From the NCBI GenBank assembly GCA_017630215.1, contig JAGBVR010000010.1, positions 62,001 through 126,000 of the forward strand: a DNA stretch of 64,000 nt, read 5' to 3'. This document shows positions 26,162 through 51,532 of the stretch, piece after piece. The position numbers and the translations under genes were made by a program. The notes beneath the pieces were generated by a model. The model saw only the letters and a list, made by a program, of their open reading frames with translations. It searched no databases and was not told the origin of the DNA. This DNA is from Bacteroidales bacterium (GTDB lineage Bacteria; Bacteroidota; Bacteroidia; Bacteroidales; UBA932). Every line of letters starts with the position of its first letter. Positions within the stretch are counted from its first letter, which is position 1.

Positions 26162-26441
26162 AAATCAAAATCTTATCGTTATTTGCCGTACGTTCTGCGA
26201 AAGATAACAACGTACCTTCAGTAATCAAATCAACATCAAATCCAAGAAGTTCACTCAATTCCAATGAAATCTTGGCGTGCCTCATCAGGCTGACTTTTGC
26301 CTCTTTATCAAAGACTACAAGTATATCAATATCGCTTCCGCTATGAGCTTCGCCCCTTGCATAAGAGCCGAAGACCCAAGCCTTCACAATCGGTTGGGTT
26401 GCAAAGTAGCGTACAATCTTGTCTGTGAGTCTCTTATCCAT
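26145..26441 (-). CDS. mntA: MntA-like minimal nucleotidyltransferase antitoxin
   Basis: 98 residues from the ATG at 26441. The nucleotidyltransferase motif GSYARGEAHSGSDIDILV gives GSX10DXD with the two metal-binding Asp, and FDVDLI supplies the third acidic residue. It AMPylates and neutralises HepT. The open frame runs further upstream but that part crosses the promoter at 26459-26490, so the shorter start is right. Confidence 0.9.
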   Translation of the reverse strand: MDKRLTDKIVRYFATQPIVKAWVFGSYARGEAHSGSDIDILVVFDKEAKVSLMRHAKISLELSELLGFDVDLITEGTLLSFAERTANNDKILIYERAS

Positions 26442-26458
26442 AGCAAAAGGCGTTTCTG

Positions 26459-26490
26459 CAAATATATAAGATTTTTCGTTGTATTGCAAA
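26459..26490 (-). promoter_or_regulatory. Promoter of mntA-hepT
   Basis: Read leftward: TTTG (26490-26487), 20 bases, TATATTTG (26466-26459), an exact Bacteroidetes consensus 17 nt before the mntA ATG. Confidence 0.8.
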
Positions 26491-26531
26491 GAATATGCGG
26501 AGCTATAACAACATCTCACACATAAGATTAT

Positions 26532-26559
26532 AAAAGTGTTGCACCCAAACAACACTTTT
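26532..26559. terminator. Hairpin between mntA promoter and GC-rich RNA region
   Basis: AAAAGTGTTG (26532-26541) pairs perfectly with CAACACTTTT (26550-26559) around an 8-nt loop. It may be a bidirectional transcription barrier. No gene ends here. Confidence 0.5.
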
Positions 26560-26619
26560 CAAGAAAATGCCGGACATGCGCAACACCTTATTAACATTCT
26601 CTACATCATCATTCTTATT

Positions 26620-27003
26620 ATCCCCGGCACTACGAGCGGCGACAGCCGCCAGGGGCGTCCGCGAGGTAGCGAAGCCACCGAGTGGCAACCGAGGGAGCCG
26701 CAGGCTCCCGAAGGGAAAGGAACAGCGACGTTGAACTTCTGCACTGCCGTTCGATTGAAATGCTGGAGTCTTTCAACGCACTGCGCGACTACCGGCCTGC
26801 ACTAAGCAGTAGAAACGTTCGAGGGCGGCGACTTGCACTGGGGACTCCGGCACTGAGGTCGCCGCCCATGCACCGGAGGACTGCCTTGAAGGCAAGTCTC
26901 TTGGCTTTTCTGTGAAAAGACGAGAGTCTTGCGGCGGTCCGTAGTAATAGATAGCACGCCTTTGATGACTTTCGCAGAAAGGCATCTAGGGCGAGACCGC
27001 TTT
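26620..27003 (+). ncRNA. Candidate structured RNA, short member (shares 3' domain with 49020-50567)
   Basis: GC-rich and without a credible protein, set between AT-rich genes. Hairpins include GCGGC/GCCGC near 26636, GGGAGCC/GGCTCCC (~26695) and a 10-bp stem GGGCGGCGAC/GTCGCCGCCC (~26823-26867). The last 134 nt (26870-27003) closely match 50432-50567, including the outer GCGGTC (26934-26939)/GACCGC (26995-27000) stem followed by TTTAT. The orientation is inferred from that terminal hairpin. Its 5' end is not defined. Confidence 0.6.
26870..27003 (+). repeat. Shared 3' RNA domain, copy 1
   Basis: Matches 50432-50567. Elements in order: GCAAG/CTTGC arm, GCGGTC/GACCGC outer stem, and the inner hairpin GATG-A-CTTT / AAAG-G-CATC with loop CGCAG. 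The purine-purine mismatch is swapped (A opposite G here, G opposite A in the other copy). Confidence 0.85.
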
Positions 27004-27093
27004 ATAGATAAACACTGATTTTTTTTAGCAAAGCATATAGAAATGAGACAAAAATCTTTTTTCGCAACAATTCTATTATTAGGGATATTTTTC

Positions 27094-27101
27094 TAAATTT
27101 G
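27094..27101 (+). promoter_or_regulatory. -7 element for the methyltransferase-helicase operon
   Basis: TAAATTTG matches TAnnTTTG, 90 nt after the shared RNA domain. It overlaps the TTG that opens the methyltransferase frame, so translation probably starts downstream of it. Confidence 0.5.
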
Positions 27102-27950: not shown

Positions 27951-27960
27951 AGATTGATAT

Positions 27961-29106: not shown

Positions 29107-29118
29107 TTAGAAGCTATT

Positions 29119-36194: not shown

Positions 36195-37556
36195 ATGGCA
36201 GTTTCATTTATTCTGCGTACAACTAAGAAGACCGGATATGCACCGGTGTTTGCACGCATCCAGACCAGGAAGACAGGTCTGAATCTTAGATTATCCACCC
36301 ACGTTTCTGTTCCAATTCAGAAATGGAACTTGTCTCGAGATGGAGTGGCATTCAACAATTTCAAACAGTCGGAAGAAGGAGTCAAAATCTTTTCCAAGCT
36401 GGAGAAGATCGAAAGAGCTTTGAATTCTCTCCTTGAGCAAGATGTGATCATCACTGCTGAGCAGATGACTGGTATCATTGACAATATCGCCTTTGAAGAA
36501 GAACGTGAAGTTGAGAGGAAGAAAGCTGAGGAGGAGGCTCGTAAGATTGCAGAGGCGAACAGAATGACTTTGAATAAGTTCATTGCTATGTATATTGAGC
36601 AGATTTCTAATGGTGCCAGGCAGACTGAGAGGGGTCTGAATTTCGCGTTCAGTACTGTGAAATCTATCAAGAGTGCTTTGAATCAGTTTGCTTATTATCA
36701 GGAGCATTTAGGCAGGGAGATTGATTTCAATGACATTGATATGAACTTCTACCATGAGTATACTGCGTATCTTAAAGGAAAGAATTATTCCATCAATTCT
36801 ATTGGAAAGTGTATCAAGGAGTTGAAGACTATTCTGGCTACTGCTGAGGGTGAGGGATATCATAATAATCCAAAGTATAAGGATAAGAAGTTTAAGGGCA
36901 CTCGCGTTGAGGTAGATAATATCTATCTGACAAAGGAGGATCTGGAAAAGATAAAGAATGTGGATCTGAGTGAGTATGAGATTGGGCATGAGCATGTGAG
37001 GGATATTTTCATGGTGGGAGTATGGACTGCTCAGCGTGTTTCTGACTATAACAATATCTCAAGGGAGAATATAAAGACTTATGTGAGAGAGGTTATTGAG
37101 ACTGACGAGAATGGCGAGAAGAAGATTGTTAGTAAGGAGTTCACTCGCATTGAGATCAGGCAGCAGAAGACGGGTGCCAAGGTCGTGATTCCTTGTAGTT
37201 CTGAGCTGAAGGCGATCTTGGAGAAGTATGATTATAATCTGCCTCATTTGGAAGACCAGGTTATCAATAGATATATTAAGGATATTGGTAAGGACGCAGG
37301 GCTGACTGAGTTTGTGGAGATTGAGAAGACTCAGGGCGGTAAGGCGCAGATGAAGATGATTGAGAAGTATAAGCTTATTCATACGCATACTGCACGAAGG
37401 ACTGGAGCGACGTTGATGTATCTTTCGGGTATGGATATCTATGACATTATGAAGATCACCGGGCATTCTTCTCCGGCTATGCTTAAGAAGTATATTAAGG
37501 CTGATCAGTTGGAGGTTGCCAGCAAGATTGAGGATAAATATGATTATTTCAAGTAG
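36195..37556 (+). CDS. Tyrosine-type site-specific recombinase (integrase)
   Basis: 453 residues: an N-terminal arm-binding domain (~1-100, SFILRTTKKTGYAPVFARIQ opening), a SAM-like core-binding domain (~120-215) and a catalytic domain. Catalytic residues: Arg in WTAQRVSDY (~281), HTARRTG (H-x-x-R, ~401), His in TGHSSPAMLKKYI and the nucleophile Tyr in the same stretch. It would integrate and excise the element to its right through the adjacent site. Typical of Bacteroidales conjugative or mobilisable elements. Confidence 0.95.
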   Translation: MAVSFILRTTKKTGYAPVFARIQTRKTGLNLRLSTHVSVPIQKWNLSRDGVAFNNFKQSEEGVKIFSKLEKIERALNSLLEQDVIITAEQMTGIIDNIAFEEEREVERKKAEEEARKIAEANRMTLNKFIAMYIEQISNGARQTERGLNFAFSTVKSIKSALNQFAYYQEHLGREIDFNDIDMNFYHEYTAYLKGKNYSINSIGKCIKELKTILATAEGEGYHNNPKYKDKKFKGTRVEVDNIYLTKEDLEKIKNVDLSEYEIGHEHVRDIFMVGVWTAQRVSDYNNISRENIKTYVREVIETDENGEKKIVSKEFTRIEIRQQKTGAKVVIPCSSELKAILEKYDYNLPHLEDQVINRYIKDIGKDAGLTEFVEIEKTQGGKAQMKMIEKYKLIHTHTARRTGATLMYLSGMDIYDIMKITGHSSPAMLKKYIKADQLEVASKIEDKYDYFK

Positions 37557-38277
37557 TGCTATGCGTGAGGATAGGAATATTTTGGAGCTGGTTTCTAGGG
37601 CTCTGAATGAGGTAAATGCTGCCATTGGATCGGTTGTCGGTCCGGAGGCAGCATTTGCTTCTTTGGTTACATTGGAAGGCTTGTATCAAGATGTGTACGA
37701 GAAGATGCAGAGGGCGTATTATTTTGTTAGTGACGAGTGGGAAAGGATTGAGAAGAATAGTGCGAGGCTGTACGAGTTGTCGATGTTTATGAATGATTAT
37801 GATGCGTTCCGCAGGAATGTGATCATGTTTGATGATTGGAGGATCGACAATCAGTCGTATAGCGGAGATTGCGATGTGGCGATGGATCTTATGTTGCTTG
37901 TTGGAGAGTGGGATAGGAGATTTTCATATGTATTCAATTTCATTAGGAAGGACAATGACGAAGTTGGAGGAATGCCTTGTCTGAAAGGCTTGGCTTCGAG
38001 ATTGAGCGGGTTTATGTATGGGTATGATGATGAGGTTCTGAGCCGTGCTATTCTGCATAAGGACTTCCCTGCTTTGAAGGGTACTTGGACCGGTAGGAAG
38101 AATGAGGCGACGTATTTCGGTAAGCATTTCCATTTGTCGTGTGAGGAGATGAATATGTTGTTTGCTTTCGCGGGAAAGGACAGGAGGTCGATGAAGTTGC
38201 ATTATACCAGGAATGATGATGACAAGATTATCAGCAGTGATAGGATTGCTATGATTTTGTCGGATTATCGGATATGA
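37540..38277 (+). CDS. Integrase-linked hypothetical protein
   Basis: About 245 residues from the ATG at 37540, overlapping the integrase end by 17 nt (an alternative ATG is at 37561). Predominantly helical, with aromatic-rich segments such as KMQRAYYFVSDEWERIEKN. The C-terminal half (ATYFGKHFHLSCEEMNMLFA) resembles domains seen in RteC-like mobile-element regulators, but I am not sure of the family. Position argues for a role in the element's regulation or mobilisation. Confidence 0.6.
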   Translation: MIISSSAMREDRNILELVSRALNEVNAAIGSVVGPEAAFASLVTLEGLYQDVYEKMQRAYYFVSDEWERIEKNSARLYELSMFMNDYDAFRRNVIMFDDWRIDNQSYSGDCDVAMDLMLLVGEWDRRFSYVFNFIRKDNDEVGGMPCLKGLASRLSGFMYGYDDEVLSRAILHKDFPALKGTWTGRKNEATYFGKHFHLSCEEMNMLFAFAGKDRRSMKLHYTRNDDDKIISSDRIAMILSDYRI

Positions 38278-38289
38278 TTATATTTTCTT

Positions 38290-38375
38290 AGCGACTTTTC
38301 AGCGACATTTGATATCGAGGACGGCTTCTATCTGGGAGCCGTCTTTTTGTGTTCCAGCGACTTTCAGCGACATTG
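38290..38375. other. Third set of paired 10-11 bp repeats around a terminator
   Basis: AGCGACTTTTC/AGCGACATTTG at 11-bp spacing (38290-38311) and AGCGACTTTC/AGCGACATTG at 10-bp spacing (38356-38375) flank a hairpin (GACGGCT 38320-38326 with AGCCGTC 38337-38343, then TTTTT). The layout copies the two attachment modules at 34 and 36 kb, but the GAGGTGCCTAGCGG core is absent. It may be a site for a different recombinase. Confidence 0.5.
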
Positions 38376-38415
38376 TACGAACTTTCTGTTTGTTGGACGG
38401 GATAGTGCTAGATTC

Positions 38416-38423
38416 TAATTTTG
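38416..38423 (+). promoter_or_regulatory. -7 element for the excisionase-like gene
   Basis: TAATTTTG matches TAnnTTTG. A TTTG lies 23 bases upstream (38389-38392), slightly longer than usual. Confidence 0.45.
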
Positions 38424-38493
38424 CGGTGTCGGAAGTGGTTTTCGATAGGTAGTGTGCACCACCTTTTTGTCTTACTTAATTCATTAAAATCTT

Positions 38494-38796
38494 ATGGGAG
38501 AATTGGATGCTTTGACATCTTACATCACTGGCATCGTGAAGAGATGTGTGTCTGAAGTGTTCGCTGAAGAGGCTCCGAAGTTGATGGGGAAAGAGACTAA
38601 AAGGTACTACTCCATTGACGAGGTTTGCGAGAAGCTTGGAATCAGGAAGTCTGCTTTCCATGATAAGGCGAACAAAGGTCAGTTTATTATCGTTAAGGAC
38701 GGTCAATCGACTCTGGTTGATGCGGATGATCTGGATGAGAAGATCAGGACCGGGAAGGTAGGCAAATATGTTCATTTCAGAAGGCCTAGAAAATAG
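38494..38796 (+). CDS. Excisionase/HTH_17-like DNA-binding protein
   Basis: 100 residues. The segment RYYSIDEVCEKLGIRKSAFH and the following VDADDLDEKI strand match the winged-helix MerR/excisionase type that Bacteroidales mobile elements encode before a VirE-N/DUF3987 protein. Probably directs excision or regulates the element. The next gene begins 18 nt downstream. Confidence 0.75.
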   Translation: MGELDALTSYITGIVKRCVSEVFAEEAPKLMGKETKRYYSIDEVCEKLGIRKSAFHDKANKGQFIIVKDGQSTLVDADDLDEKIRTGKVGKYVHFRRPRK

Positions 38797-38814
38797 GTTT
38801 GGAGGTATTTGCAT

Positions 38815-41073
38815 ATGGGAAAGGCAGTATTGAATGGGGCCGAAAGTGGTTCCATCGGTGATACTCGTGTGAGTGTCTTCCGGAATGTTATGAGCAACGG
38901 CAGTAAGGATATGTCTGTTGAGGAGAGATGTATGGTATATTCTAGTTCCAGAGGTGAACCTCAAGAGATGAGTCTCCGGGAGTTTCTTGAACTTGGAGAG
39001 AAGTACAGGAATGTGATTGAGAGACTGAGGTCTTGCGAGGATAAGGAGATCAGGAACAAGATCAAAAGGACTGAGCTGCCTTGTGCGACGATTTCGGCCA
39101 GTTTTACATCCAGGGCTTCGAGCAAGGCTGTGGAGGAGAAGCTGAAGCGTTATAATTCGCTTATGGTGTTGGATTTTGATAATCTGGAGGATCCGGCTGC
39201 GGCGAAGGAGGAGCTGAGTCAGTTGCCGTTCTTTTGGTATATCGGGCTTTCCGTCGGTGGAAAGGGTTTGTTCGGGATCGTGCCGCTCGGCACGGATGAT
39301 TTCAAGGAGCATAAGGTCTATTTCAATGCTTTAAGAAAGGAACTGGAGATGTTTGGCTATGAGGTAGATAAGGCTTGCTGTGATGTCACGAGGTTAAGGG
39401 TTGTGAGTTCTGATCCTGATGCGTTTTTCAATGAGAATTGTGAATTGTTCTGTATCGACGAGCTGGAGGATGAAGGCGGCGAGATTTATTCGTCAGCCCC
39501 TGCTGCTGAGAGGCCTCAGGATAAGAGTTCCAGGATTGAGTTGTATGTGCAGGAATGGGAGAAGAGACGTGTGCCGTTGGATGATTATCAGGATTGGATG
39601 ACTGTGGGGATGGCGCTGGCCAGTGCCGGCAAGGAATGTAGGGAGTTCTTTCATCGTATATCGGTGTTTTCGTCGAAGTATGATCGGGAGGATACAGACA
39701 GGAAGTTTGATGGGTTTCTGGAGAATACGAGGAGTATCAGGATCGGAAGTTTCTTTTATAAGTGTCATGAGTATGGGGTGATTCCTGATTGTGTGCCGCA
39801 TTATGAGAGTGTTGGGTTTCCGGTGGAGGTTCTGCCGGGGAAGGTGCAGAGGATTGTGTTTGATACTCATAATTTTCAGAACTTCCCTATCGATTATATT
39901 GCTCCGTCGTTGCTGTTTGTGGCGTGTGCAGCTTGTGGAAATTCGACTGTGATTCAGATTATAAATGGGTGGTGTGAGAAGCCAATTCTTTATATGGCCA
40001 TCGTTGGTGATCGTGGTACGAATAAGACCAGTTGCTTTGAGTTTGCTTTGGGGCCGATCATGGGGAAGGATGATGAGGAGTATGATAAGTATGTGGATGC
40101 TAAAGCATTGTATGATATGGAAATGTGTAAGCCTTTGAAGGAGAGGAATGCACGGATTCAGGAGCCGGATTTCTGCCAGACTATTCTGAGTGACTTTACG
40201 CCTGAGGTTCTTGTGAGACAGCATAAGGCTAATCCTCGTGGGTTAATTGTGTATTTCGATGAGCTTATCGGTTTCATCTACAGTTTCAATAAGTATCGAA
40301 GCGGTAGTGATGAGCAGATGTGGACGCAGTTGTTTGCCGGTAGCGGTGTGACTGTGAATCGTGTGTCGTCGGATCCTGTGAAGATTGATAATACTTGTAT
40401 CAGTATTTTCGGTGGTGTTCAGCCTGGTATTCTGAAGTCGTTTGCGAAGGGTAAGGTGCAGAATGGGTTTATGGACAGGTGGATTTTTGCTTTTCCTGAT
40501 AAGGTTCCGTATCCGAAGCTGAAGGAGAATGAGATTGATGATAGTGTGAAGGAGTCGTGGAATCGTATAATTGAGAGGATTTTGTCTATCCCCTACGATG
40601 GGAAGCCGAATGTGCTGCGTTTCTCTCCGGAGGCGAAGGTGGCTTATTCGGATTGGTTCAATTCGTTGTCGGATCAGAAGAATTGTGGTGGCGATGCGTT
40701 TGCGGGGTTGGCGACGAAGATGGATAGGTATTGCGGGCGTTTGGCTTTGGGGCTGGAGGTTTTGGCTTATGGATGTGGCGAGTCGGAGCTGACGGAGGTG
40801 AGTTTGCGAAGTGTGAAGGGCGCGATTGCTTTGTGCTATTATTTCATCGGTTGCGGTTTGAAGGCTCAGAGGGAGTATCTGAGCAGTCCGGCTAGTGATC
40901 TGCCGGCAATACAGAGGCTGATCTATGATGAGCTTCCTCCAAGCTTCGAGACTAAGCAGGGTGTGGATATCGCTACTGGCTATGGGATGCCTGAGAGGAG
41001 CTTCAAGAGGTGGCTGGCCACGAGTTATTTCAAGAAGGTCAGTTATGGGTTTTATGAGAAGAGGTTCAGGTAG
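38815..41073 (+). CDS. VirE N-terminal / DUF3987 protein of mobile elements
   Basis: About 752 residues. The N-terminal VirE_N-like part (~75-215: TISASFTSRASSKAVEEKL, then LMVLDFDNL and VTRLRVVSSDP, resembling a primase-like fold) is followed by a PriCT-like helical segment (~225-310). The DUF3987 domain carries a degenerate P-loop (AIVGDRGTNKTS, ~393) and FDELIGF. Such proteins are common in Bacteroidales integrative elements and are presumed to act in element replication. Unusually G-rich codon use compared with the defence genes. Confidence 0.85.
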   Translation: MGKAVLNGAESGSIGDTRVSVFRNVMSNGSKDMSVEERCMVYSSSRGEPQEMSLREFLELGEKYRNVIERLRSCEDKEIRNKIKRTELPCATISASFTSRASSKAVEEKLKRYNSLMVLDFDNLEDPAAAKEELSQLPFFWYIGLSVGGKGLFGIVPLGTDDFKEHKVYFNALRKELEMFGYEVDKACCDVTRLRVVSSDPDAFFNENCELFCIDELEDEGGEIYSSAPAAERPQDKSSRIELYVQEWEKRRVPLDDYQDWMTVGMALASAGKECREFFHRISVFSSKYDREDTDRKFDGFLENTRSIRIGSFFYKCHEYGVIPDCVPHYESVGFPVEVLPGKVQRIVFDTHNFQNFPIDYIAPSLLFVACAACGNSTVIQIINGWCEKPILYMAIVGDRGTNKTSCFEFALGPIMGKDDEEYDKYVDAKALYDMEMCKPLKERNARIQEPDFCQTILSDFTPEVLVRQHKANPRGLIVYFDELIGFIYSFNKYRSGSDEQMWTQLFAGSGVTVNRVSSDPVKIDNTCISIFGGVQPGILKSFAKGKVQNGFMDRWIFAFPDKVPYPKLKENEIDDSVKESWNRIIERILSIPYDGKPNVLRFSPEAKVAYSDWFNSLSDQKNCGGDAFAGLATKMDRYCGRLALGLEVLAYGCGESELTEVSLRSVKGAIALCYYFIGCGLKAQREYLSSPASDLPAIQRLIYDELPPSFETKQGVDIATGYGMPERSFKRWLATSYFKKVSYGFYEKRFR

Positions 41074-41362
41074 GGTTATGTGTATATGTTAGTGGCATTC
41101 TTGGCATTGTTGGCACAGTTTGGAGGGAATGAGGGGTAAGTGTGCCGAGAATGCCAAGTGTGCCAAGGGGGTGGAAGAAAAGTCAAAACGCCACTCAACG
41201 AGCACAAACATAATCACAATCAGAACACATAACACATATTTTAGAACGGTATTTATTATTTTTAGTTCAAAAATGAGGAATTTTGGAACAACTTATGATA
41301 TTTTTCATACCTTTGCAGGAAAGAAACAAACATACAAACAAACAAAGACACACGCAAAGATT
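41074..41362. other. Intergenic region before ietA-like gene
   Basis: Contains three 9-bp near-repeats starting GGCA (GGCATTCTT, GGCATTGTT, GGCACAGTT at ~41096-41122) and a complementary run GTGTGCCGAGAATGCC (~41141) that can pair with them, then AT-rich sequence carrying the promoter at 41282-41315. Confidence 0.4.
41282..41315 (+). promoter_or_regulatory. Promoter of the AAA ATPase/subtilase pair
   Basis: TTTG (41282-41285), 22 bases, TACCTTTG (41308-41315), 47 nt before the ATG at 41363. Confidence 0.65.
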
Positions 41363-42448
41363 ATGAATACAGAAGTACTTCGCATTATAGAGGGAGGTTT
41401 AGCTAATGACAAACGTAAAATTTTGACATATTCTGCTAAGCTTGCCGAAAGACTGCAAAAAGAGAACGAAACAGCTTTAGCAAAATGCATTCGCCAGTTA
41501 ATTGACTCTAGTATACCCCAGAGCCAAGCTATTGCTGATGCAATGCGAGTGATTCCCTTAGACTCTGACAGCCGTCTTCAAATAGTCGAAGTAATTCCTG
41601 CAGACGGAGAAAGACAACCCATCGTATTAAGTCCTGTTGTTGAGAAGCAAGTTTCTGAGTTTATTGACATCATTAAACATAGCGCAGCTCTAGAATTAGC
41701 TGGTGTTGAAATCAAAAAAACGCTCCTCCTTTATGGACAACCAGGTTGCGGCAAAACAAGTATTGCCCATTATATAAGCGAAAAGACAGGGTTACCACTT
41801 ATAGTTGCTCGTCTTGACGGCATTGTGTCTTCACTTCTTGGTAGTACAGCAAAAAACATAAGGAAGATTTTTGACTATGCTCAAAGTGTCCCTTGCATAC
41901 TATTCCTTGACGAATTCGACGCTATAGCAAAGGCAAGAGATGACCAGCATGAATTAGGAGAACTGAAAAGAGTGATCAACACTCTTTTACAGAACATTGA
42001 CTCCATGCCATCAAGCTGCGTTTTGTTAGCAGCTACAAATCACCAAGAGATGTTAGACCCTGCGGTATGGAGAAGATTCGTACAGACTATTGAAGTAGGC
42101 ATGCCATCACAAGATGCAATCATGGAGATGAACGATGTTTTCACTGCCCCATTTACCTCAGACATGACAGAAGAGCAAAAGAGAAGTTTGGCAAAAACGC
42201 TTGATGGCTTGTCACCATCTGACATTAAGAACATTTTCGACAGAGCTAAAGTCAAGAGCGTAATAGACGGTGAGCAAACAATATCATTCCACAAACTTCT
42301 CACTGGTGCATATGAAACTATATGCAAAGAACAAACAGAAGAAGACTACGTTCGCTTTTTAAGCAATCACGGTCTCACACAAGCAACAATTAACAAACTT
42401 ACAGGTATAAGTCTAAGAAAAATAAAGACATACCTTTCATCGAAATAA
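41363..42448 (+). CDS. ietA: AAA ATPase, IetA-like
   Basis: 361 residues. A helical N-terminal ~110 residues precede one AAA domain: Walker A LYGQPGCGKTSIAHY (~126), Walker B ILFLDEFDAIAKA (~183), sensor 1 VLLAATNHQ and arginine finger VWRRFV. A C-terminal HTH-like segment (LTQATINKLTGISLRKIKTY) ends the protein. Paired with a subtilisin-like protease it matches the IetAS system, first known from plasmid incompatibility and later reported as anti-phage. The ATG at 41363 lies just after the promoter; the longer frame is not translated. Confidence 0.85.
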   Translation: MNTEVLRIIEGGLANDKRKILTYSAKLAERLQKENETALAKCIRQLIDSSIPQSQAIADAMRVIPLDSDSRLQIVEVIPADGERQPIVLSPVVEKQVSEFIDIIKHSAALELAGVEIKKTLLLYGQPGCGKTSIAHYISEKTGLPLIVARLDGIVSSLLGSTAKNIRKIFDYAQSVPCILFLDEFDAIAKARDDQHELGELKRVINTLLQNIDSMPSSCVLLAATNHQEMLDPAVWRRFVQTIEVGMPSQDAIMEMNDVFTAPFTSDMTEEQKRSLAKTLDGLSPSDIKNIFDRAKVKSVIDGEQTISFHKLLTGAYETICKEQTEEDYVRFLSNHGLTQATINKLTGISLRKIKTYLSSK

Positions 42449-42465
42449 TATAGGAGATTTAACAT

Positions 42466-44799
42466 ATGGAAAGAAATTTACCTATTCAGTTAGTTGAAAC
42501 ACGAGGAAAACAAGATATTTTCTTAAAGGAAGGATTTGGAAACGACGAGTTACCAGACTGGGCTACAGACGAATCTATAGAACGCAATGTAGGCATTATG
42601 CGCAGCACTCTTGCCGTTGTACAAGATATTTTTGATCAGAGGGACGCAAGACATGAGGATGGTCTTCCTGTACTTATTGTTGCGACATTGCATGACAAGG
42701 CTACTGCAAAATCATTTAGGCCAAATGCAAGAGCCCTGTTTGACAGCAAAAAGAAGAGAAATATTATTGGTGTTGGTGACCCCAAAAAGCTGATCATTAA
42801 AATTGACAGCAAAAAGGATCTGACACAAATGGCTTCAAATATTGACGAAGGAGATGCCCACGAGAATAGCAAGGTCAAAAGATGCGGAATTGCTGCGATT
42901 AATGACCTACAACTCTTTGCACCTTTTATCGAAGACGACATAGTCGAAGGTACCGTAAAAATCAGACTCATCGATTACCTTGATAGCAGGCTCAACGAAA
43001 CTTCAGAAGCTTTATTCTTTACCCGATGCAAAGCCAGTGGTATAGACATAAAAACGACATCATTCTCGAAAGAGTCGAGACTTTATTACGCTGACAAGAT
43101 AACATCCGAAAATGTTTCAGCTTTAGCTGTAATGGACTCAGTAATATCAGTGAAGAAGATGCCGTATTTCCAAATTGTAGCTTCCCCAGAGCCATACAAC
43201 ACTAAAATAGAAGTTAAGGAAATTGTTGAGGGAGAGGAGTATCCAATTGTCGGGGTTCTTGATTCCGGAGTTGAGCCTATTCCTCATTTAGAGAAATGGA
43301 CAATTACTGAAGACAACACAGCAGACTTTGCAGAAGAATATATTGACAAACGACATGGCACGGCCGTAGCTGGTATCATCAACTATGGCGACGATCTCCT
43401 TGGTGAGCCCGCAACAAAATGCAGTCCATCCAAACTCATCTCATGCATAGTAAACATCGACTCTGATGAACATCGTATAGGGGAACTTGAGATGGTCGAG
43501 CACATAAAATCCGCTATTGAAGCTCATCCTGAAGTCAAAGTATGGAATTTGTCGCAAGGATCATCAAATGAGATAGACGACAATTGTTTCTCTGACTTTG
43601 CAATTGAAATAGATAAGTTGCAGAAAAAGCATAATGTACTTATTTGTAAGTCTGCGGGAAACATAGACCCAAGAACTCCAGACAAAATAAGGATTAGTCA
43701 AGGTGCCGATTCAGTAAGAAGCTTGGTAGTTGGTTCCATTGCCAACTCTTATTTAGGAGAAGGAGACGCGCAACCATATCAGAGATCACCATTCTCTAAA
43801 ATTGGTCCTGGACCTAGCTTGATGACCAAACCTGATTTAGTGCACATCGGAGGTAACAGACTTAGCGGAGTACACTCTTTTTCAGAAGTCGGATTTGAAG
43901 GACGTGAGTGGCGAGGAACAAGCTTCTCAACCCCGCGAATAGCAGCAATGGCAGCAAATATCGCCCATAGACTAAATAGGGATTTTGATCCAACCTTGAT
44001 AAAAGCGTTGCTTATACACAATTCATTCTATCCTAATACAGAAGGAATGGACAGTCAGTCGCTGCTCAAAGAGTTAGGTCATGGAATGCCAACTGATATT
44101 GAAACAATACTGAATAATGATCCTAACGAATTTACAATGGTGTGGCATCCATCATTAAGCGAAGGGGATCTGCAGATTCAGGACATACCATTCCCTACAT
44201 CAATGATAGATGATGACGGGCTCTTCTACGGAGACATAACTGTTACGCTTGTCACAGACCCCGTATTAAAGAGTACCGAAGGAGCAGAATATTGCCAAAG
44301 CGATATAGAAGTCCTGTTGCAAACTTACGATGGAATAGACTACTATATGCTGAATGCAGTTGGAACACCAAAAACATACAGGAATGATGAGAGACTTCGA
44401 AACCCACAAAACGTCCTTGCCAAAAGCTTATACGGCGCAGGATCATTCAAAAGTGCCAAGCGAGAAGAAAGGACATTAATTGAAGCGGCTCAAAAATTCC
44501 AGCCTGTCAAGAAATATCACATCAATCTTGAAAAGATGACGAAAGCAAATCGAATAAAGCACCTCAAAGGAGACAAGAAATGGTGCCTCAGAATCAACAG
44601 TCTATACAGAGATGCGACAATGAAAGACAGGGACTATGACGGAGTAATTGAAACAGCCAAAGCAACTGTAATTATCACCATCAGAGACACTAGGAATCAA
44701 GGCAAAGCATATGATGAATGCTACGCAAGTCTCGACCAACACAATTTTGTTCACTCAAACATAATGTTAAGACAGCATGTAGAAGTAAACAACCAATAA
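42466..44799 (+). CDS. ietS: Subtilisin-like serine protease (S8), IetS-like
   Basis: 777 residues with no signal peptide, so it acts in the cytoplasm. The S8 triad is complete: Asp in VGVLDSGVEP (~265), His in KRHGTAVAGI (~301) and Ser in RGTSFSTPRIAAM (~486). The N-terminal ~255 residues and C-terminal ~240 residues are uncharacterised. It follows the AAA ATPase by 17 nt. The partner pair fits IetAS, in which the ATPase is thought to control the protease. Confidence 0.88.
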   Translation: MERNLPIQLVETRGKQDIFLKEGFGNDELPDWATDESIERNVGIMRSTLAVVQDIFDQRDARHEDGLPVLIVATLHDKATAKSFRPNARALFDSKKKRNIIGVGDPKKLIIKIDSKKDLTQMASNIDEGDAHENSKVKRCGIAAINDLQLFAPFIEDDIVEGTVKIRLIDYLDSRLNETSEALFFTRCKASGIDIKTTSFSKESRLYYADKITSENVSALAVMDSVISVKKMPYFQIVASPEPYNTKIEVKEIVEGEEYPIVGVLDSGVEPIPHLEKWTITEDNTADFAEEYIDKRHGTAVAGIINYGDDLLGEPATKCSPSKLISCIVNIDSDEHRIGELEMVEHIKSAIEAHPEVKVWNLSQGSSNEIDDNCFSDFAIEIDKLQKKHNVLICKSAGNIDPRTPDKIRISQGADSVRSLVVGSIANSYLGEGDAQPYQRSPFSKIGPGPSLMTKPDLVHIGGNRLSGVHSFSEVGFEGREWRGTSFSTPRIAAMAANIAHRLNRDFDPTLIKALLIHNSFYPNTEGMDSQSLLKELGHGMPTDIETILNNDPNEFTMVWHPSLSEGDLQIQDIPFPTSMIDDDGLFYGDITVTLVTDPVLKSTEGAEYCQSDIEVLLQTYDGIDYYMLNAVGTPKTYRNDERLRNPQNVLAKSLYGAGSFKSAKREERTLIEAAQKFQPVKKYHINLEKMTKANRIKHLKGDKKWCLRINSLYRDATMKDRDYDGVIETAKATVIITIRDTRNQGKAYDECYASLDQHNFVHSNIMLRQHVEVNNQ

Positions 44800-44879: not shown

Positions 44880-45587
44880 TTACTCGCCCTCTACAGGGGC
44901 GTCTTCGTCGAGTCTGACCATGGTGAGCATCTCGCCGGATTTTTCGCCGGTTTTGGTGTTGACGAAGAAGTACTTCATGAAGATCTTTGGAGCGGCGGCG
45001 TTAGGGGCGCCGTGCTTGTTGTCGTAGTCTTCTTTGATGTCGTACTCCTCTGTTACTGCCTCGAGGACTCCACCGATCTGAACGGCTTTGCTGTAGGCGC
45101 GTGTCACACCGTTTGACTGAGGTGCTGAGGCCTGAATGATGAGCTTCAGATCCTGAACATTCTCAGGTTCGCTCTCGAGCTCGAAGGTGAATTTAGTTGG
45201 AGTGAGGGTTACTACGGCCTCTGTCGGAGCCTCTACGCCCTGAAGTGCTGGTGGGTTTGCGAGAGCTTCGCCACCACATGCTACAATCCAGTAGTTGAGG
45301 CGTGAGTAGAGGTTGGCTCCGGAGATCTTAGCGGATGTTCCGAGAACTGACTTTCCTGCCTGGGTCTGAGCCAGGGCATTCCATGCGAGGATCTGGGCGT
45401 TGGTTAGGTTCTTCCAGCTCTGCGAGAGCTGCTTGAAGATTGATTTCACTGCTGCCTGGGCACTTGTGCGGACTGATCCGCCGTAACCACGATTGCGGAT
45501 GTACTTACGACCGCGCACCTTGGCTGCGGTTACACCCTTTGCTGAGCCTGACATTTCGTCGAAGGCGATTGAAGGAACGTACTTCAT
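44880..45587 (-). CDS. DUF6266-like protein 1
   Basis: 235 residues from the ATG at 45587 (MKYVPSIAF). The N-terminal half has the family pattern SIAFDEMSGSAKGVTAAKVR, then QAAVKSIFKQLSQSWKNL and QILAWNALAQ. The C-terminal half is a beta-sandwich-like domain (LTPTKFTFELE, MKYFFVNTKTGEKSG). The same architecture occurs in the genes at 47086-48144 and 48299-48997. The family is frequent in Bacteroidetes and of unknown function; a virion or surface role has not been shown. Confidence 0.7.
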   Translation of the reverse strand: MKYVPSIAFDEMSGSAKGVTAAKVRGRKYIRNRGYGGSVRTSAQAAVKSIFKQLSQSWKNLTNAQILAWNALAQTQAGKSVLGTSAKISGANLYSRLNYWIVACGGEALANPPALQGVEAPTEAVVTLTPTKFTFELESEPENVQDLKLIIQASAPQSNGVTRAYSKAVQIGGVLEAVTEEYDIKEDYDNKHGAPNAAAPKIFMKYFFVNTKTGEKSGEMLTMVRLDEDAPVEGE

Positions 45588-45591: not shown

Positions 45592-46062
45592 TTAAGGTTT
45601 AAGGAATTTAACAATATATAGTATCGCGAACACTATCAATATGATGAGGATTCCGAGGAACCAGCCACCCATCTTCATCTTGAAGGACTGCCAGCCGGTC
45701 AACTCTTTCTCCACTTCTACGGTCTCATACACGACCACGTCTTTGAAAATCACGCTGTCACGATAGACAATCTTGGTCTGAACTTCTACGGGCTGCTGGA
45801 TAGGTTTGGTCTCAAGAGAATGAGAAAGCAATCCATCAGACACAGACGCAGAGCTCATGGCATAGTCGTTCTCGAGAACAGATACAGTATCAGCAGTAAC
45901 GATCTTCTCTACAATCTTGGGAACTTCGAGAAAGACCGTGTCTGTCTGAAACACCGTCTCGATACGGGTTTCAGTGATGATCTTCTCTGACGGTGCAGCC
46001 TGGCGGGCAGTCGCACAGGCTACACACAAGGCAGAGAAAAGAACGAGGATGAAGTTTTTCAT
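45592..46062 (-). CDS. Lipoprotein with C-terminal membrane helix, spanin-like
   Basis: 156 residues. Signal sequence ending in a lipobox-like LCVAC (Cys16), an extended Val/Thr/Glu-rich middle, and a strong C-terminal helix GWFLGILIILIVFAILYIV. An outer-membrane lipid anchor plus an inner-membrane helix joined by a periplasmic rod is the topology of unimolecular phage spanins. The gene is next to a holin-like protein. The assignment is topological only. Confidence 0.55.
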   Translation of the reverse strand: MKNFILVLFSALCVACATARQAAPSEKIITETRIETVFQTDTVFLEVPKIVEKIVTADTVSVLENDYAMSSASVSDGLLSHSLETKPIQQPVEVQTKIVYRDSVIFKDVVVYETVEVEKELTGWQSFKMKMGGWFLGILIILIVFAILYIVKFLKP

Positions 46063-46071: not shown

Positions 46072-46329
46072 TTATTCGTGTCGGTCTGCTTTCTTGAGCA
46101 GCTCTGCTTCAAACTTGTGGAACTTGATGTCATAGGATGCCTTCACACCGAGGATCGCACCGCAGAGAACCAGGAGTTCGCTCACAATCGAGATTGCTGA
46201 ATATGTGATCTCTCCAAGCGGCTCAATCCAGAACAGGCACACCATCGCAATCAGGACTCCGCAGCTGAAACTCGCCACCGCAAGACCGCCCTGCAGACGT
46301 GTGATTTCTATGTGGGACATCTTTGGCAT
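46072..46329 (-). CDS. Holin-like small membrane protein
   Basis: 85 residues with two membrane helices (GGLAVASFSCGVLIAMVCLF and AISIVSELLVLCGAILGV) and a charged C-terminus, the class II holin layout. It is spaced 9 nt from the spanin-like gene. No endolysin is present nearby, so lysis function is inference. Confidence 0.5.
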   Translation of the reverse strand: MPKMSHIEITRLQGGLAVASFSCGVLIAMVCLFWIEPLGEITYSAISIVSELLVLCGAILGVKASYDIKFHKFEAELLKKADRHE

Positions 46330-46336: not shown

Positions 46337-47074
46337 TTACTGTTTATCTCTTACTGCGAAGAAGTAAATGAACGGCTCATATCCTGTAGCGGAATTGCTT
46401 GCCTCCGGCTTCGGTATGGTAATCACTCCGTTCTCAAGACGACCAAGGTAAGTTCCGCCTCCCGGCACATCAGCCTGATGTGGGAAACCGCTGATGTAGA
46501 TATCGATATTAACGTCTGTCGGGAATCCCTCAAGAGTAATCACGAAATCCTCCTTCATGTAGTTGTAGCCATTGTCCGAGAACTGAGCAGTAAGGAAACA
46601 CCAGCCCTCTTCAACAACGCAACACACGTTACTCTCGTACATGTCGTAATTGGCATACACGAAGTTCAGCTTTGTTGTAGGAGACTTCTCAATAGCTGAC
46701 CTCTTACCCTTCTGAACATAGAGAGTCGCAAGGATGATATCCACACTCTCCAGTTCATCATATATCGGCAGTTTCTCAATGCAGATTGTGTTCTTATTCT
46801 TGATCCAGGTTGTCAGAACAGTACCAACGCCATAGTTCTTCCTGTAATAATCATCTGGCCACATGAGTTTCACACTGTGCATGAAGCAAGAAGAATTGGA
46901 ACTCTTGCCGAAAGAAAGATCCGGAACATAAATCTCCAGAACAGAAGCATTACGATACGCCTCATTCTTTGGATCAAAAGTGATCTTCGCATTCAGAACC
47001 ACCACCTTCTCAGACTGATAGTCCTTTATTTCAATGGCTCCACAGCCAAAGTTATTTCCTGTCGCTATAATCAT
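46337..47074 (-). CDS. Hypothetical protein of the phage-like block
   Basis: 245 residues, no signal peptide, mainly beta-strand, with many Cys and Tyr residues (for example SSNSSCFMHSVKLMWPDDYY). I do not recognise it. It lies 11 nt after the second DUF6266-like gene and 7 nt before the holin-like gene, so it belongs to the same transcript and may be a structural or adhesin protein. Confidence 0.6.
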   Translation of the reverse strand: MIIATGNNFGCGAIEIKDYQSEKVVVLNAKITFDPKNEAYRNASVLEIYVPDLSFGKSSNSSCFMHSVKLMWPDDYYRKNYGVGTVLTTWIKNKNTICIEKLPIYDELESVDIILATLYVQKGKRSAIEKSPTTKLNFVYANYDMYESNVCCVVEEGWCFLTAQFSDNGYNYMKEDFVITLEGFPTDVNIDIYISGFPHQADVPGGGTYLGRLENGVITIPKPEASNSATGYEPFIYFFAVRDKQ

Positions 47075-47085: not shown

Positions 47086-48144
47086 TTATCTGTCAACAAA
47101 TACTCCTGTAGTGTGAACCTCGGAAGGTTTCTCGTAATGACCTCCACGATGCTTGAACGAAATCTCATAGTTACCAATCCACTTCATCACATCGACGCAA
47201 TAAGTCTGAGGTGTATAATTGTTCTCAGCAGTACCACGTGCCAGAATCATAGTCTTTCCCTCAATGAAGTTCTTAGGTTCCTTTGCCAAGAAGAATGTCG
47301 AACATGCGACATTATCCTCGCCATAAAGAATCGCATCAACTGAACAGATTGCAGATCCAGGAGACAACTCAAAGTCAAGACCTTCTCCATACGATTCCTC
47401 AGTCACATCGTCCTGAGTAAATCTTGCACGCGGAACATAAGCCTCATTGTAAGCTGTAGAACCCTCCTTGCAGATTGCTGAAATCCACATACTTTCTCCA
47501 GTAAAGCCTGTCTCAGTATCAAGCCACCAGCACTCGAGATAGTATTTCATACCAGCTTGCGGAGCCACACCGATAGTCTCTGTGAAAAGCTTTGTGATAT
47601 TCGCCTCGCCCCAGTCGTCAATAATACCCGGAGCCACGATAACAGTCTTACTCCAACCGCTTGTGGTTCCAGGACTCTGAGCTGGAGACATCTTCACAAC
47701 AAGACGATAAGTATCTGACGGCACTTCAAGACCTGTAAACACGATCATATCAGGAGAGATCCACAAATCCTCATACAGAACCTCAGGAACATCTGCCATA
47801 TACACCGGAGCCTCTTCAAGCGGAGGCATGCCGACCATTGCACGATTGGAGTTTATACGGACAAATGCATTGTGGGCAGTCAGGCTTGCTGCCTGGCCGA
47901 ATGTGGAGATTCCCTTAAGATGACCAGCCAAGACCTCCCACTGGTTAATTTGGGAATCGGAGAGCTGTCGGAATGTGCGGGAGATCTTGGATAGTCGGTT
48001 TCTTGAGACCGCCTGAGCAGGCGTAACTATCTTGGAATGCTGGGCACGTGAGGAAAGGATATTGCGGCCCTTGACATTGCGGGCGGTGACATCCTTCGCT
48101 GTGCCGGCGAAGTCATTGAAGGCTATTGAGGGTTTTACGATCAT
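47086..48144 (-). CDS. DUF6266-like protein 2
   Basis: 352 residues from the ATG at 48144 (MIVKPSIAF). Shares with protein 1 the N-terminal line SIAFNDFAGTAKDVTARNVK and the Q-x-n-W-x-x-LA repeat (INQWEVLAGHLKG), then carries two successive beta-rich segments instead of one. First gene of the leftward phage-like block. Function unknown. Confidence 0.7.
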   Translation of the reverse strand: MIVKPSIAFNDFAGTAKDVTARNVKGRNILSSRAQHSKIVTPAQAVSRNRLSKISRTFRQLSDSQINQWEVLAGHLKGISTFGQAASLTAHNAFVRINSNRAMVGMPPLEEAPVYMADVPEVLYEDLWISPDMIVFTGLEVPSDTYRLVVKMSPAQSPGTTSGWSKTVIVAPGIIDDWGEANITKLFTETIGVAPQAGMKYYLECWWLDTETGFTGESMWISAICKEGSTAYNEAYVPRARFTQDDVTEESYGEGLDFELSPGSAICSVDAILYGEDNVACSTFFLAKEPKNFIEGKTMILARGTAENNYTPQTYCVDVMKWIGNYEISFKHRGGHYEKPSEVHTTGVFVDR

Positions 48145-48298: not shown

Positions 48299-48997
48299 AT
48301 GCCGAAATATATCCCCAATTCCAGGTTTACTGATTGCTATGCATCAGTGGGCAACATCACATTCTATCACAGGGACGGAGAGTGTTTCTTCCGCACCAAG
48401 GCGAAGCCTGTGTTTCCCGGTACCGCCGGGCAGCAGGTGCAGCTGTCCATCCATCAGAGAGGACTCCAGGAGTGGAGGAACCTGGGACACGAGGAACAGC
48501 TGGAGTGGAATGCCCTGGCCAGAAGCGTCAGATCCAAACGACCACCATTCAATACCTCAACCCACATCAGTGGATATAACCTCTTCATGTCCGCCTATCA
48601 CGGCCTCGCCTGTATAGGCGACGAACGCATCCCGGAACCTCAACCCATTCCGGACTTTCCTGTTATACACCTCACCCTTGTCTCTGCTACAGTCACCAAC
48701 GAAACCGACCTGCAGATATCCTTCCGGATCACCGGAGACACAATCCCCTTGAGCATGAGAATCATCGGTAAACTCCAGCTCACTGCCCCAGGATACAGTC
48801 CACATCGAGGCAAGTTCAGGAACCACGTCGGCACCATAGGCAATGATGGCCATGTGACAATCATCATGCATGAATATAAAACCGTCTCCGGCCTTGACCT
48901 TCGGGAGTACCAGATACACATGCGGTACTTCATCATCGACGCCCATAGCGGGCACAGATCGAAGGAATGGAGCCTGTCAGAAGGAGTATGTATATAG
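48299..48997 (+). CDS. DUF6266-like protein 3
   Basis: 232 residues from the ATG at 48299, divergent from protein 2. The N-terminal half follows the family plan (YASVGNITFYHRDGECFFR, then GLQEWRNLGHEEQLEWNALA and SGYNLFMSAYHGL). The C-terminal half is beta-rich and His/Ile-rich. It is the gene immediately upstream of the large RNA region on the same strand. Confidence 0.7.
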   Translation: MPKYIPNSRFTDCYASVGNITFYHRDGECFFRTKAKPVFPGTAGQQVQLSIHQRGLQEWRNLGHEEQLEWNALARSVRSKRPPFNTSTHISGYNLFMSAYHGLACIGDERIPEPQPIPDFPVIHLTLVSATVTNETDLQISFRITGDTIPLSMRIIGKLQLTAPGYSPHRGKFRNHVGTIGNDGHVTIIMHEYKTVSGLDLREYQIHMRYFIIDAHSGHRSKEWSLSEGVCI

Positions 48998-49019: not shown

Positions 49020-50567
49020 CTTAAGCTCAGAGGTAATTCAGAGGGACCTCGAAGGAAGTCCGGCCAGGACTTCCGCACATGGGCATTTGTATAACTCCCG
49101 GCACCACCTGCAGGCGGAAGATGACGGTGCAGAAGCAGACACGCCGAAGCGGGAGATTCATCCTTGGCCTATGGTGTTTGGGGACGGTTTTCGCGTCTGC
49201 GTGAGCAGAGGCGGAAACCGGCCACAAATGCCATAGGGGGCAAGCCCGTGAGGGCGCGGCAGGAGCCGGACGCACTGAGGTTCGAGCGGGAGGTAAGGGT
49301 CTCTCCGGCTCTGGCACATACGCTGACTAAGAACCACTAACGCCACAACCTACAGGCGTGCTTTGGCGAGTCTGTGGGATTTATGGAGAGGAGCGTATGC
49401 GGAACGGAATAAATCACACAGTCTCGCCTGTCTTGGCTGCGCCGAGATGTGAGCTGACGCGATAGCGGCTGCTGACAGCTCGGAGGAAAGCAGGCAAGAC
49501 ATCTGCCCGCCCTCGGAAGATTTGGAAGACTTGGAGCAAAGCGGAAAGGCTTTCAAGTCTGGAGAGGGAAAAGCGGGCAGTATTAAACTCATCGGCAGAG
49601 CCGATACCTTGCCTACGGAAGGCTTTTATGACTGACTGAGCTTGCGAAGGAAGTGATAAAAGACTGGAGAAGGCCCGCGGCTGCGCCGCTAAGGCTGGCA
49701 ATTCCTTTTCGGACTTTCGGCCGTCATCAGAGTTACTGCCACTACTCTACTCCCTGACATTCGCAAAAGAGACAACCTTGACATCCCCACGCCGAAAGTC
49801 CTGAGCCTCCCGACGGACTTGGAGGCCGTTAGTCCCTGAGGGAGGCTCATTATTGCCAGCCGCCTCGACTGAGCGGGCAAAAGAGATGTGTAACTTGTTG
49901 GCACTAAGGGAGATAGTTAACATAATCCATATTGTGTAATCTGACGCTTGCAGGTCGTTCCTACGTGCTCTAACCCTTCTTAAATTGAGGCCTTGGGGCG
50001 AGTGATGACGGTGGAAGTCTGTTACACAATAAACCCTTGGATTATGTTAATCTCTCGGGCCACGAAGGATGAGGGTCCACTCCGGACGGCGGTAGCGAAG
50101 GCGATCATTCTTCCCCTGTGGGGATAAGAGGGGCATAGACCAGCTGGAGTCTTATGACTTTGGAGCGGAGCGGAAAAGGCTTAAGTCTCCAGACCGCTGT
50201 TTGTTTAACCGAGCGAAGCGAGTTATGGATGGTTGCCTTCTTGACAAACTCGCTTTGGCAAGAGGGCAAGTGCCGCTTAACTTTGATGAGGGTGGGTTCA
50301 ACGTGAGGAGGTTTGCTACGAGGGCGTTGGCCTGTGGGGAGAGAGTCAGGTATCCAACGATTTTCCCAAAATCGTTGATAAGATACCTGATGACCGGGGA
50401 TGGAATCGTGGCAAACCGGGAGCCGGTCGAAGCACCCGGAGGAGCGCCTTGAAGGCAAGTCTCTTGGATTTTCGAAGAAAAGACGAGAGTCTTGCGGCGG
50501 TCCGGAGTTAATAGATAGCTCGCCGATGATGGCTTTTGAAGAAAGACATCTTGGGCGAGACCGCTTT
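49020..50567 (+). ncRNA. Candidate giant structured non-coding RNA (~1.55 kb)
   Basis: No plausible protein in any frame, GC-rich against AT-rich flanks, and dense in long complementary segments. Examples: GGAAGTCC 49054-49061 with 49067-49074; CCTATGG 49168-49174 with 49231-49237, enclosing CGGTTT/AAACCG and TCTGC-GTGA-GCAGA; 49365-49384 with 49409-49428 (20 positions); TTAACATAATCCA 49917-49929 with 50038-50050, continued by ATTGTGTAA/TTACACAAT; CAGGTATC plus CAACGATTTT with their complements at 50368-50389. It ends with GCGGTC/GACCGC and TTTTAT. The size and style recall GOLLD, ROOL and OLE RNAs, but I cannot match it to a known class. The 5' end is uncertain. Confidence 0.75.
50432..50567 (+). 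repeat. Shared 3' RNA domain, copy 2
   Basis: Counterpart of 26870-27003. CTCGCC (50519-50524) pairs with GGCGAG (50554-50559), and GATG-G-CTTT / AAAG-A-CATC form the inner hairpin with loop TGAAG. Outer stem GCGGTC 50497-50502 with GACCGC 50559-50564. The terminal T-run also contains the antisense stop codon of the acyltransferase gene. Confidence 0.85.
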
Positions 50568-51532
50568 TATATAATCCCTATCAGTTTGGCAATTCGTTTT
50601 CCTGAAAAGAGTTTTATTATCCAGTTTAACAGCGCACAAACAGATAATAATATTACACTATCAAATGGATATGGTATCGCTTTGTACCCAATAGATTGCT
50701 CTAGTATCCGTAAAAATAGAATGTGCGACAGGTAAATCCCGAATGAGTATTCTCCGATTAGAGTCAGTATCCTGGAACGTGGCTGAAATGTATTGCTTTG
50801 TAGTAATGTATATAGAATCAGAACGAATATGGAGCTGGATAATAATGATGATAATTTGAGTTGAGAGCCATAATTGCCCGCATCAAGTTTCGCCCATATA
50901 TATCCTTCTATCATCTGTAGCACAATTGACACTGCATAAACAATAGTGAGAGTTGGCAAATTATATTTTTTGTTGATAATCTTGTTTCCCAAAAGCAACC
51001 CAAGGTAATAAAAGGTAAACCAACCGAGGCAAAGATCTGACCAGAGCAGGTACAGATATTTATTCGTATGTATCCCGAAAGAATAACCGTAATATTTAAA
51101 CAACAATACGGATACTGGGGCAATCAGCCATCCTAGATAACGGTACCTTGATTTTGCAAGTTTGAACAGAAACGGGGTCAGCAGGACAAACTGGGCATAT
51201 ACGAATATATAGTATAGTGTACCGCATGCATTGGCAGAAACAAGGTTCTTTGCCAGTGCGATAAGACCTGAAGATGAGATATCAGGGAGGCTATATATAA
51301 CTGTCCAGACTATATATGGCACAGCGATACGAGACAGGCGTCGGCGATAGAATGCCGACCAGTCCTCATTACTCTCTCTTGTGAGATATCCGGAAAGAAA
51401 GAGGAAAGTCGCAACCGGAAAATTGATGAGAGGCCTTAAGAATATCTGCCAGTTTCCTGGTGGCATAGTATGAACCATCACCACAGCTATGATAGCCATA
51501 GCTCTGAATGTCTGTATCCGCTGGTCTTTCAT
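50567..51532 (-). CDS. Acyltransferase 3-family membrane protein
   Basis: 321 residues with about ten membrane helices. QTFRAMAIIAVVMVHT supplies the family's conserved Arg and His near the N-terminus, and FLSGYL and RRLSRIAVPYIVW are further acyltransferase-3 motifs. Such enzymes O-acetylate or acylate polysaccharides and glycolipids. It starts 15 nt after the methyltransferase stop. Its last codon lies at the very end of the structured RNA on the opposite strand. Confidence 0.88.
   Translation of the reverse strand: MKDQRIQTFRAMAIIAVVMVHTMPPGNWQIFLRPLINFPVATFLFLSGYLTRESNEDWSAFYRRRLSRIAVPYIVWTVIYSLPDISSSGLIALAKNLVSANACGTLYYIFVYAQFVLLTPFLFKLAKSRYRYLGWLIAPVSVLLFKYYGYSFGIHTNKYLYLLWSDLCLGWFTFYYLGLLLGNKIINKKYNLPTLTIVYAVSIVLQMIEGYIWAKLDAGNYGSQLKLSSLLSSSIFVLILYTLLQSNTFQPRSRILTLIGEYSFGIYLSHILFLRILEQSIGYKAIPYPFDSVILLSVCALLNWIIKLFSGKRIAKLIGII

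Follow-up and report, generated by a model that had tools for sequence, protein, structure and literature searches.

The window analysed here is a 64,000-nt stretch of DNA from an uncultured gut bacterium belonging to Bacteroidales, and all window coordinates count from its first letter. On the plus strand it contains a giant structured element, whose core (49060..50055, +) is about 1 kb long and is followed by a 3' module (50042..50573, +). The element very likely carries a folded site of the Xer type, formed by two inverted dif-like sequences. The original prediction had described 49020-50573 as one unit, a possible giant non-coding RNA (ncRNA) with no credible coding frame. The large plus-strand structure is real, while the 3' third is a module that recurs separately, and the RNA role is doubtful in view of the dif-like stem and the terminal loops described below. 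The longest open reading frames (ORFs) wholly within the element are of 117 and 96 amino acids (aa), both on the minus strand, in agreement with the absence of a credible coding frame. A protein-coding gene on either strand was rejected by inference; the long ORFs of GC-rich relatives are antisense in the compared loci and overlap covarying stems. The GC content is 0.52-0.57 in the element, 0.37-0.46 downstream and 0.47-0.53 in the 1.5 kb upstream, so that the predicted GC-rich position in an AT-rich island holds for the downstream side and not for the upstream side.

The plus strand of the core folds far better than expected from its composition (z about -8.5). The minimum energy is -215.9 kcal/mol with DNA parameters (z -8.54) and -420.8 kcal/mol with RNA parameters (z -8.36), and in both cases none of 20 dinucleotide shuffles was as good. 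The long-range bipartite helix pointed out earlier, 49917-49939 with 50022-50050, is included in both minimum-energy folds, with 24 pairs under DNA parameters and 23 under RNA parameters. The other long helix of the original prediction, 49365-49384 with 49409-49428, is present in the DNA fold (18 pairs) but absent from the RNA fold (0 pairs), and it is missing from some close relatives (L108 and L110). This helix includes the T.T mismatch of AGTCT/AGTCT. By eye, the AGTCT/AGTCT pairing with the central T.T mismatch recurs at 49365-49428 of the window, in stems of several relatives and in the solo modules, and it could be a protein-binding motif. Loops of GTGA, one of which had been noticed as a hairpin cap, are found in the window copy.

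Using the window copy as a query, matches were found in 14 of 101 genomes (its own and those of relatives), in full in its own genome and over parts in the others. The sister copy L027 matched 70 of 200 genomes of the same genus at E ≤ 1e-3, a count that takes in short pieces and solo modules. An alignment of protein A, encoded beside the element, was used for scanning named genomes and yielded 165 related stretches, from which 79 loci were kept. Their titles are all Bacteroidales, Bacteroidia or other Bacteroidetes, except for three loci from two metagenome-assembled genomes titled Bacillota and Oscillospiraceae. Many of the loci come from ruminant or horse guts, and one is from Candidatus Cryptobacteroides. 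The scan of the viral collection IMG/VR with protein A revealed one locus. By BLAST, 53 of 80 protein A loci match the window copy or L027, and the closest relative, L105, is 96% identical over 1426 nt.

Based on similarity, the window copy was grouped with L105-L112, L117, L124, L143 and L161, and the sister group includes L026, L027, L032 and others; the stretches aligned from the sister group are about 1.0-1.4 kb long. The two groups were tested apart, because the 5' half of the window copy aligns unreliably with the sister group. For the window group (15 rows), RNAalifold predicted 108 pairs, 39 of them with double-sided changes; the bipartite helix is omitted from this fold because several rows are without its 3' arm. 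For the sister group (23 rows, window excluded), pairing of the 157 pairs is retained in 96.7% of their 3463 cells; partner shuffles average 85.4%. Compensatory types were observed for 59 pairs. In 100 shuffles this number averaged 31 and never exceeded 36, and sliding the alignment gave no more than 16. In a held-out test with a split chosen to limit circularity, the structure derived from 12 rows paired 93.1% of cells in the 11 other rows, compared with 42.5% when slid by +1 and 37.9% when slid by -1; 47 of 211 pairs were compensatory, and 7 in each slid control. The original prediction had proposed a search for homologues with covarying helices, and such homologues thus exist in both its own and the sister group. 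It is nearly certain that the structure of the element is conserved. Iteron-like repeats, TGTCCAC/GTGGACA, were also seen in the sister group, close to where the element ends on its 3' side (L027 9286-9340 and L026 5399-5460).

In the sister group, G.T pairs outnumber A.C pairs by 144 to 20 cells, and another count gave 182 versus 13 on the plus strand and 83 versus 25 on the minus strand. The excess therefore indicates the plus strand, with the bias that folding itself rewards G.T. Read as G.U, the same excess, together with the covariation of the plus strand and the z-score under RNA parameters, favours a new class of giant structured ncRNA. According to this explanation, the element would have a function like that of GOLLD or ROOL and be expressed from a degenerate prophage, and its dif-like stem would be a coincidence or a fossil. 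A conserved, covarying single-strand structure is what was found, and the size and the tRNA gene near some loci resemble GOLLD and ROOL as they are presented in PMC12286853. On the other side, G.U makes up only 4% of cells.

The search with Rfam gave no family at the gathering score in the whole window, consistent with the earlier impression that no recognised class is present. The window had four matches at E ≤ 10, all implausible: two to microRNA families (best E 0.014), one to a fragment of a plastid intron and one to an internal ribosome entry site. Among 13 relative loci, the gathering score was reached only by four tRNAs and two riboswitches, all outside the element; L027 showed weak matches to microRNA models (best E 0.00095), under the gathering score of the family. 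The covariance models of the giant ncRNAs GOLLD, ROOL, OLE and HEARO thus matched neither the window nor the relatives, and a group II intron, a riboswitch or any other Rfam class was rejected for the same reason. The two riboswitches are of the SAM-I/IV type and lie 3' of one element copy (L069 4125-4223 and 3056-3156). The element matched none of the plasmid and phage records by BLAST, so its identity with such a record was rejected, and searches of open-access papers turned up no description of it.

The bipartite helix is composed of two dif-like Xer sites in inverted orientation; in the window, one has a short spacer (6 nt) and the other a long spacer (12 nt). Site 1 (49915..49942, -) consists of the XerC-like arm AGATTACACAA, the 6-nt spacer TATGGA and the XerD arm TTATGTTAACT; the 11 nt of this XerD arm are identical to those of a dif-like site in its own genome (C7:55180). 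Site 2 (50019..50052, +) consists of the XerC-like arm CTGTTACACAA, the 12-nt spacer TAAACCCTTGGA and the XerD arm TTATGTTAATC, and it pairs with site 1 in the computed fold when single-stranded. A script that demanded identical last four XerC letters in both arms detected 43 distinct hairpins of this kind in 43 loci, with L178 doubtful and a few contigs possibly counted twice. In these hairpins, the spacer of site 1 is 6 nt, that of site 2 is 11 nt (32 hairpins), 12 nt (7) or 10 nt (4), and the XerD arms are separated by 53-123 nt. Their XerC arms end in ACAA (38), ATAA (3) or AAAA (2).

Among the closest known systems is attP of the phage CTXphi, which according to PMC3089051 consists of two inverted sites separated by about 90 bp, their spacers being 6/7 nt and 12 nt long. 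The two sites anneal within the (+) single-stranded DNA (ssDNA) of the phage, where XerC carries out the exchange of a single strand pair with dif (PMC3089051). The element likewise has two inverted dif-like sites with short and long spacers, seen in the 43 hairpins and in the window fold, which can pair in ssDNA to mimic dif. The difference is that attP(+) is a hairpin of about 150 nt from a known filamentous phage (an inovirus, an integrative mobile element exploiting Xer), whereas the hairpin of the element is embedded in a conserved structure that measures about 1-1.4 kb and adjoins genes of unknown kind, and it is intact at chromosomal positions away from dif.

The dif sites of the hosts were compared with the arms of the element. 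Of 51 genomes from the genus of the window, 43 contain the 18-mer CAATTTATATTATGTTAA, in most cases a single time; the accompanying XerC arms include TTGTTACACAA and TTGTTATACAA. In other families, a YATAA N6 TTATGTTAA site is found in 12 of 16 genomes, often in the context CTATAATTTATATTATGTTAAATAG; single hits of this TATAA-type pattern are unsafe, because a reversed control also matched 8 of 16 genomes. The dif pattern had no match in 8 of 28 genomes searched. The comparison used 16 hosts in which dif was clear and one or more element sites were present, excluding G244 and G260 with spurious-looking dif matches as well as hosts with no exact element site. For the last four letters of the XerC arm, to which it was confined, ACAA is present in both the element arm and dif in 15 of the 16 hosts; the exception is G252, with AAAA in the element. 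In host G248, the candidate dif is of the ATAA type, and all three element sites found have ATAA arms. A stem that tracks a DNA-binding site of its host is hard to explain for an RNA, although the contrast rests on this one ATAA host.

The XerC arm of dif varies among Bacteroidales, being of the ACAA type in the window genus and some others and of the ATAA type elsewhere; the site for resolving chromosome dimers appears to have shifted. The genome of the window has two dif-like sites (G000:C6:124781 and G000:C7:55180), with the spacers TTTATG and TTTATA.

The terminal loops also bear on the choice between DNA and RNA. Perfect hairpins with stems of at least 6 bp were collected from 51 element sequences, in which the contigs L096/L143 and L098/L124 are counted twice. 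On the plus strand, 48 of 108 triloops are GNA and 36 of 62 tetraloops are GNNA; the loops typical of RNA amount to 11 GNRA, all among these GNNA loops, and 1 UNCG. The minus strand of the same sequences gave 2 GNA triloops and no GNNA tetraloop. With stems of at least 4 bp, 39 elements have GNA in 111 of 350 triloops and GNNA in 70 of 280 tetraloops, 19 of them GNRA, with 3 UNCG. The 16S and 23S rRNAs of E. coli, treated as a control at the same stem length, have GNA in 1 of 9 triloops and GNNA in 3 of 18 tetraloops, all GNRA, with 3 UNCG. In the alignments, one hairpin is C-GNA-G in all 34 ungapped rows, and another, counted over its eight commonest loops, is C-GNNA-G with a pyrimidine at the third position in 22 of 30 rows. 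One hairpin of the window group alternates among GTGA, GTA and GTTA, and its stem changes are compensated.

The loops GNA and GNNA are known from stable DNA mini-hairpins, according to PMC4686876. DNA is preferred over RNA mainly because many of the loops follow this GNA/GNNA rule, and the element probably acts as ssDNA. Three points temper this: the loop counts are descriptions and not independent trials, since the rows are related and two contigs are doubled; the rRNA control is small; and only 6 of the 15 aligned loops listed are mainly GNA or GNNA, the 9 others being different. The ncRNA explanation has to account for a preference for GNA/GNNA over GNRA/UNCG and for arms that are similar to the host dif and vary along with it. 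Compared with GOLLD and ROOL, the element shares a large ornate fold with phage-like genes or tRNAs near some copies, but it has no Rfam match, DNA-type loops and a dif-like stem. Overall, a giant ncRNA is an unlikely identity for it.

Parts of the 3' module recur without the rest in L022-L025, L028 and L034, and also in the window as a solo structured module (26556..27011, +), of which 26873-27011 is 87% identical to 50436-50574. In six modules pooled, including the latter, 14 of 33 triloops are GNA and 5 of 11 tetraloops are GNNA. What L022 and L034 share with the 3' module begins at GATTATGTTAAT, the XerD arm, and these two loci have no paired dif-like partner. A scan of IMG/VR for the 3' arm was discarded as a lead, having returned three contigs with one identical match and no partner arm; a second IMG/VR pattern recovered only the contig already known from the protein A scan. 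The solo module of the window lies upstream of genes for a methyltransferase, a helicase, an 801-aa protein with no Pfam match and a DUF1848 protein, the last recognised by PADLOC as RTasDUF1848 (gene cluster at 27099-32524). On its other side is a HepT-like/nucleotidyltransferase toxin-antitoxin pair (25814-26552, -).

These modules could be understood as cassettes, along with accessory genes, of a chromosomal recombination platform, in which host XerC/XerD would work an integron-like site and load and exchange cargo. Solo modules do lie beside accessory genes in L022 and L024, and L022 has two modules with an identical junction on either side of two genes. What lies 3' of the element varies and includes a few restriction or defence genes (a type IIG enzyme in L119, others in L137 and L115), with 3 of the 10 proteins tested matching a defence model; different insertion sites alone may explain such differing neighbours. 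In 12 of 38 hand-picked rows (9 of 34 after merging duplicates) a contig end falls within 150 nt of the hairpin, but contig breaks have other causes. The lack of a paired partner in L022 and L034 speaks against this explanation. Integron attC, which needs IntI according to PMC4792948, resembles the proposed site in that a tyrosine recombinase acts on one folded strand and cargo genes lie nearby, but the element has Xer-type arms and one site in each locus, and showed no IntI. Cassette arrays, each cassette with a folded site, were not seen among the loci compared, which have a single hairpin each. A platform of this kind is improbable, the least favoured of the explanations weighed here.

The conserved operon A-F lies on the 5' side of the element. 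Protein A (48299..48997, +; 232 aa) has no Pfam match and adjoins the element in 47 of 53 element-bearing loci. It is followed upstream by protein B (47086..48142, -), a paralogue of A and F, protein C (46337..47074, -), which is conserved in the operon, protein D (46072..46329, -), a small membrane protein judged holin-like by eye, protein E (45592..46062, -), lipoprotein-like with a C-terminal membrane helix and judged spanin-like by eye, and protein F (44880..45584, -), a paralogue of A. The element diverges from A in 36 of the 53 loci, follows F in 6 and follows A co-directionally in 11 (L105-L115), as in the window. An invertible gene A, flipped in the window, was considered and rejected; the flip looks fixed rather than phase-variable because L105-L115 share it. 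The AlphaFold model of A (pLDDT 88.8) has a helical N-terminal part and an Ig/FN3-like beta-sandwich, for which Foldseek returned generic matches only, none of them telling, and A as a replication enzyme was rejected on these grounds. On the 3' side, an acyltransferase-domain gene (PF01757; 50567..51532, -) is possible cargo. Immediately ahead of the operon, at 36195-44799, is a mobile or defence cluster with a tyrosine recombinase, a DUF3987/BT4734-like primase-helicase, a phage-ATPase-family protein and a subtilase.

A tyrosine recombinase gene adjoins A in several loci. In the copies located after F (L126, L162, L163, L175 and L182), only a short distance separates A from a tRNA gene upstream of it, and about 10 A loci with no detected element show the same arrangement. 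Insertion by a tRNA-specific integrase was rejected, since a search for flanking repeats yielded none that was convincing; in some loci, the upstream distance of the tRNA from A is about 200-480 nt. A 12-nt direct repeat is present in L164, a locus with no detected element.

The surroundings, described at the outset as phage-like, are unknown genes that are partly so, and A-F might encode the virion and lysis proteins of a new family of ssDNA viruses or satellites, present here in integrated form. A phage lysozyme gene follows F in L150 and an M15 peptidase gene is present in L125, where no element was detected; one member was tested for each of these clusters, which occur in 7 and 4 loci. According to PMC9719478 and PMC3091885, ssDNA phages of Bacteroidetes use dif/Xer. 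The BMV microviruses and PhiCjT23, dif-integrating ssDNA proviruses, share the host phylum with the element, as well as the use of Xer/dif and of ssDNA proposed for it, and BMV4-6 are reported to carry a second dif-like sequence (PMC3091885). They have capsid and replication genes, whereas none was recognised beside the element, nor was a capsid, replication or packaging gene among the proteins tested. The A-type protein was found in 1 IMG/VR locus versus 165 genome stretches, and the matches to the Ig-like fold of A are uninformative. The viral explanation is unlikely, if slightly less so than the ncRNA.

The explanation we consider likely, judging from sequence comparison, is that the element is the ssDNA-folded attachment and control region of an undescribed mobile element of Bacteroidales that exploits host Xer recombination. 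The plus strand of the element would become single-stranded during replication, transfer or packaging, and the fold would protect and mark it. The paired arms would form a dif-like duplex with a bulged centre that is offered to host XerC/XerD, which, by analogy with CTXphi, would exchange a single pair of strands with a target. Such exchanges may have produced the solo modules and the differing 3' neighbours.

Several observations weigh against this explanation. The dif-like site of its own genome is 57 kb from the element. At chromosomal loci remote from dif, the two Xer arms are unbroken, which counts against integration through them because an integrated copy should have one of them split. 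Integration at dif with a split site was seen neither in the hairpins nor around dif, where BLAST of 8 stretches (7 containing the site) matched neither A-F nor the element. The Xer stem is nearly invariant, with 3 of 19 pairs covarying, and its support is its sequence because it hardly covaries. The spacer of site 2 starts with TTT, as dif does, in 6 of the 43 hairpins, which speaks in favour, but 9 hairpins share only two of these bases, 24 only one and 4 none, and the window spacer, starting with TAA, shares one base and misfits the CTXphi rule; by this rule, dif therefore suits some copies only, and the window copy poorly. The ACAA-type dif occurs outside the window genus as well (G240, G245 and G246). 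No convincing flanking repeats mark the ends of the element in the loci compared, and no replication or relaxase gene and no ssDNA-making enzyme was recognised. With the arms intact, dif distant, the spacers mostly poor and such an enzyme not recognised, what is claimed is therefore a function like that of a folded attP, and not proven membership in this group.

In the broadest form, for which the chances are about even, the element would belong to an undescribed type of virus or mobile element in Bacteroidales. The genome of this type would go through an ssDNA stage and bear a kilobase-scale conserved DNA fold with a host-matched folded dif inside, and it may be a living relative of the ancestor of integron cassettes. 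To our knowledge, this would be the largest conserved single-stranded DNA structure known. If the likely explanation given above is right, natural selection acts on kilobase-scale folds of DNA rather than RNA, and the grammar of terminal loops may separate DNA folds from RNA folds in comparative genomics. A chromosomal, host-matched folded Xer site with varied cargo would make the viral origin of integrons, as proposed in PMC4792948, testable. Gut Bacteroidales would, moreover, turn out to harbour a widespread mobile element that still has no name.

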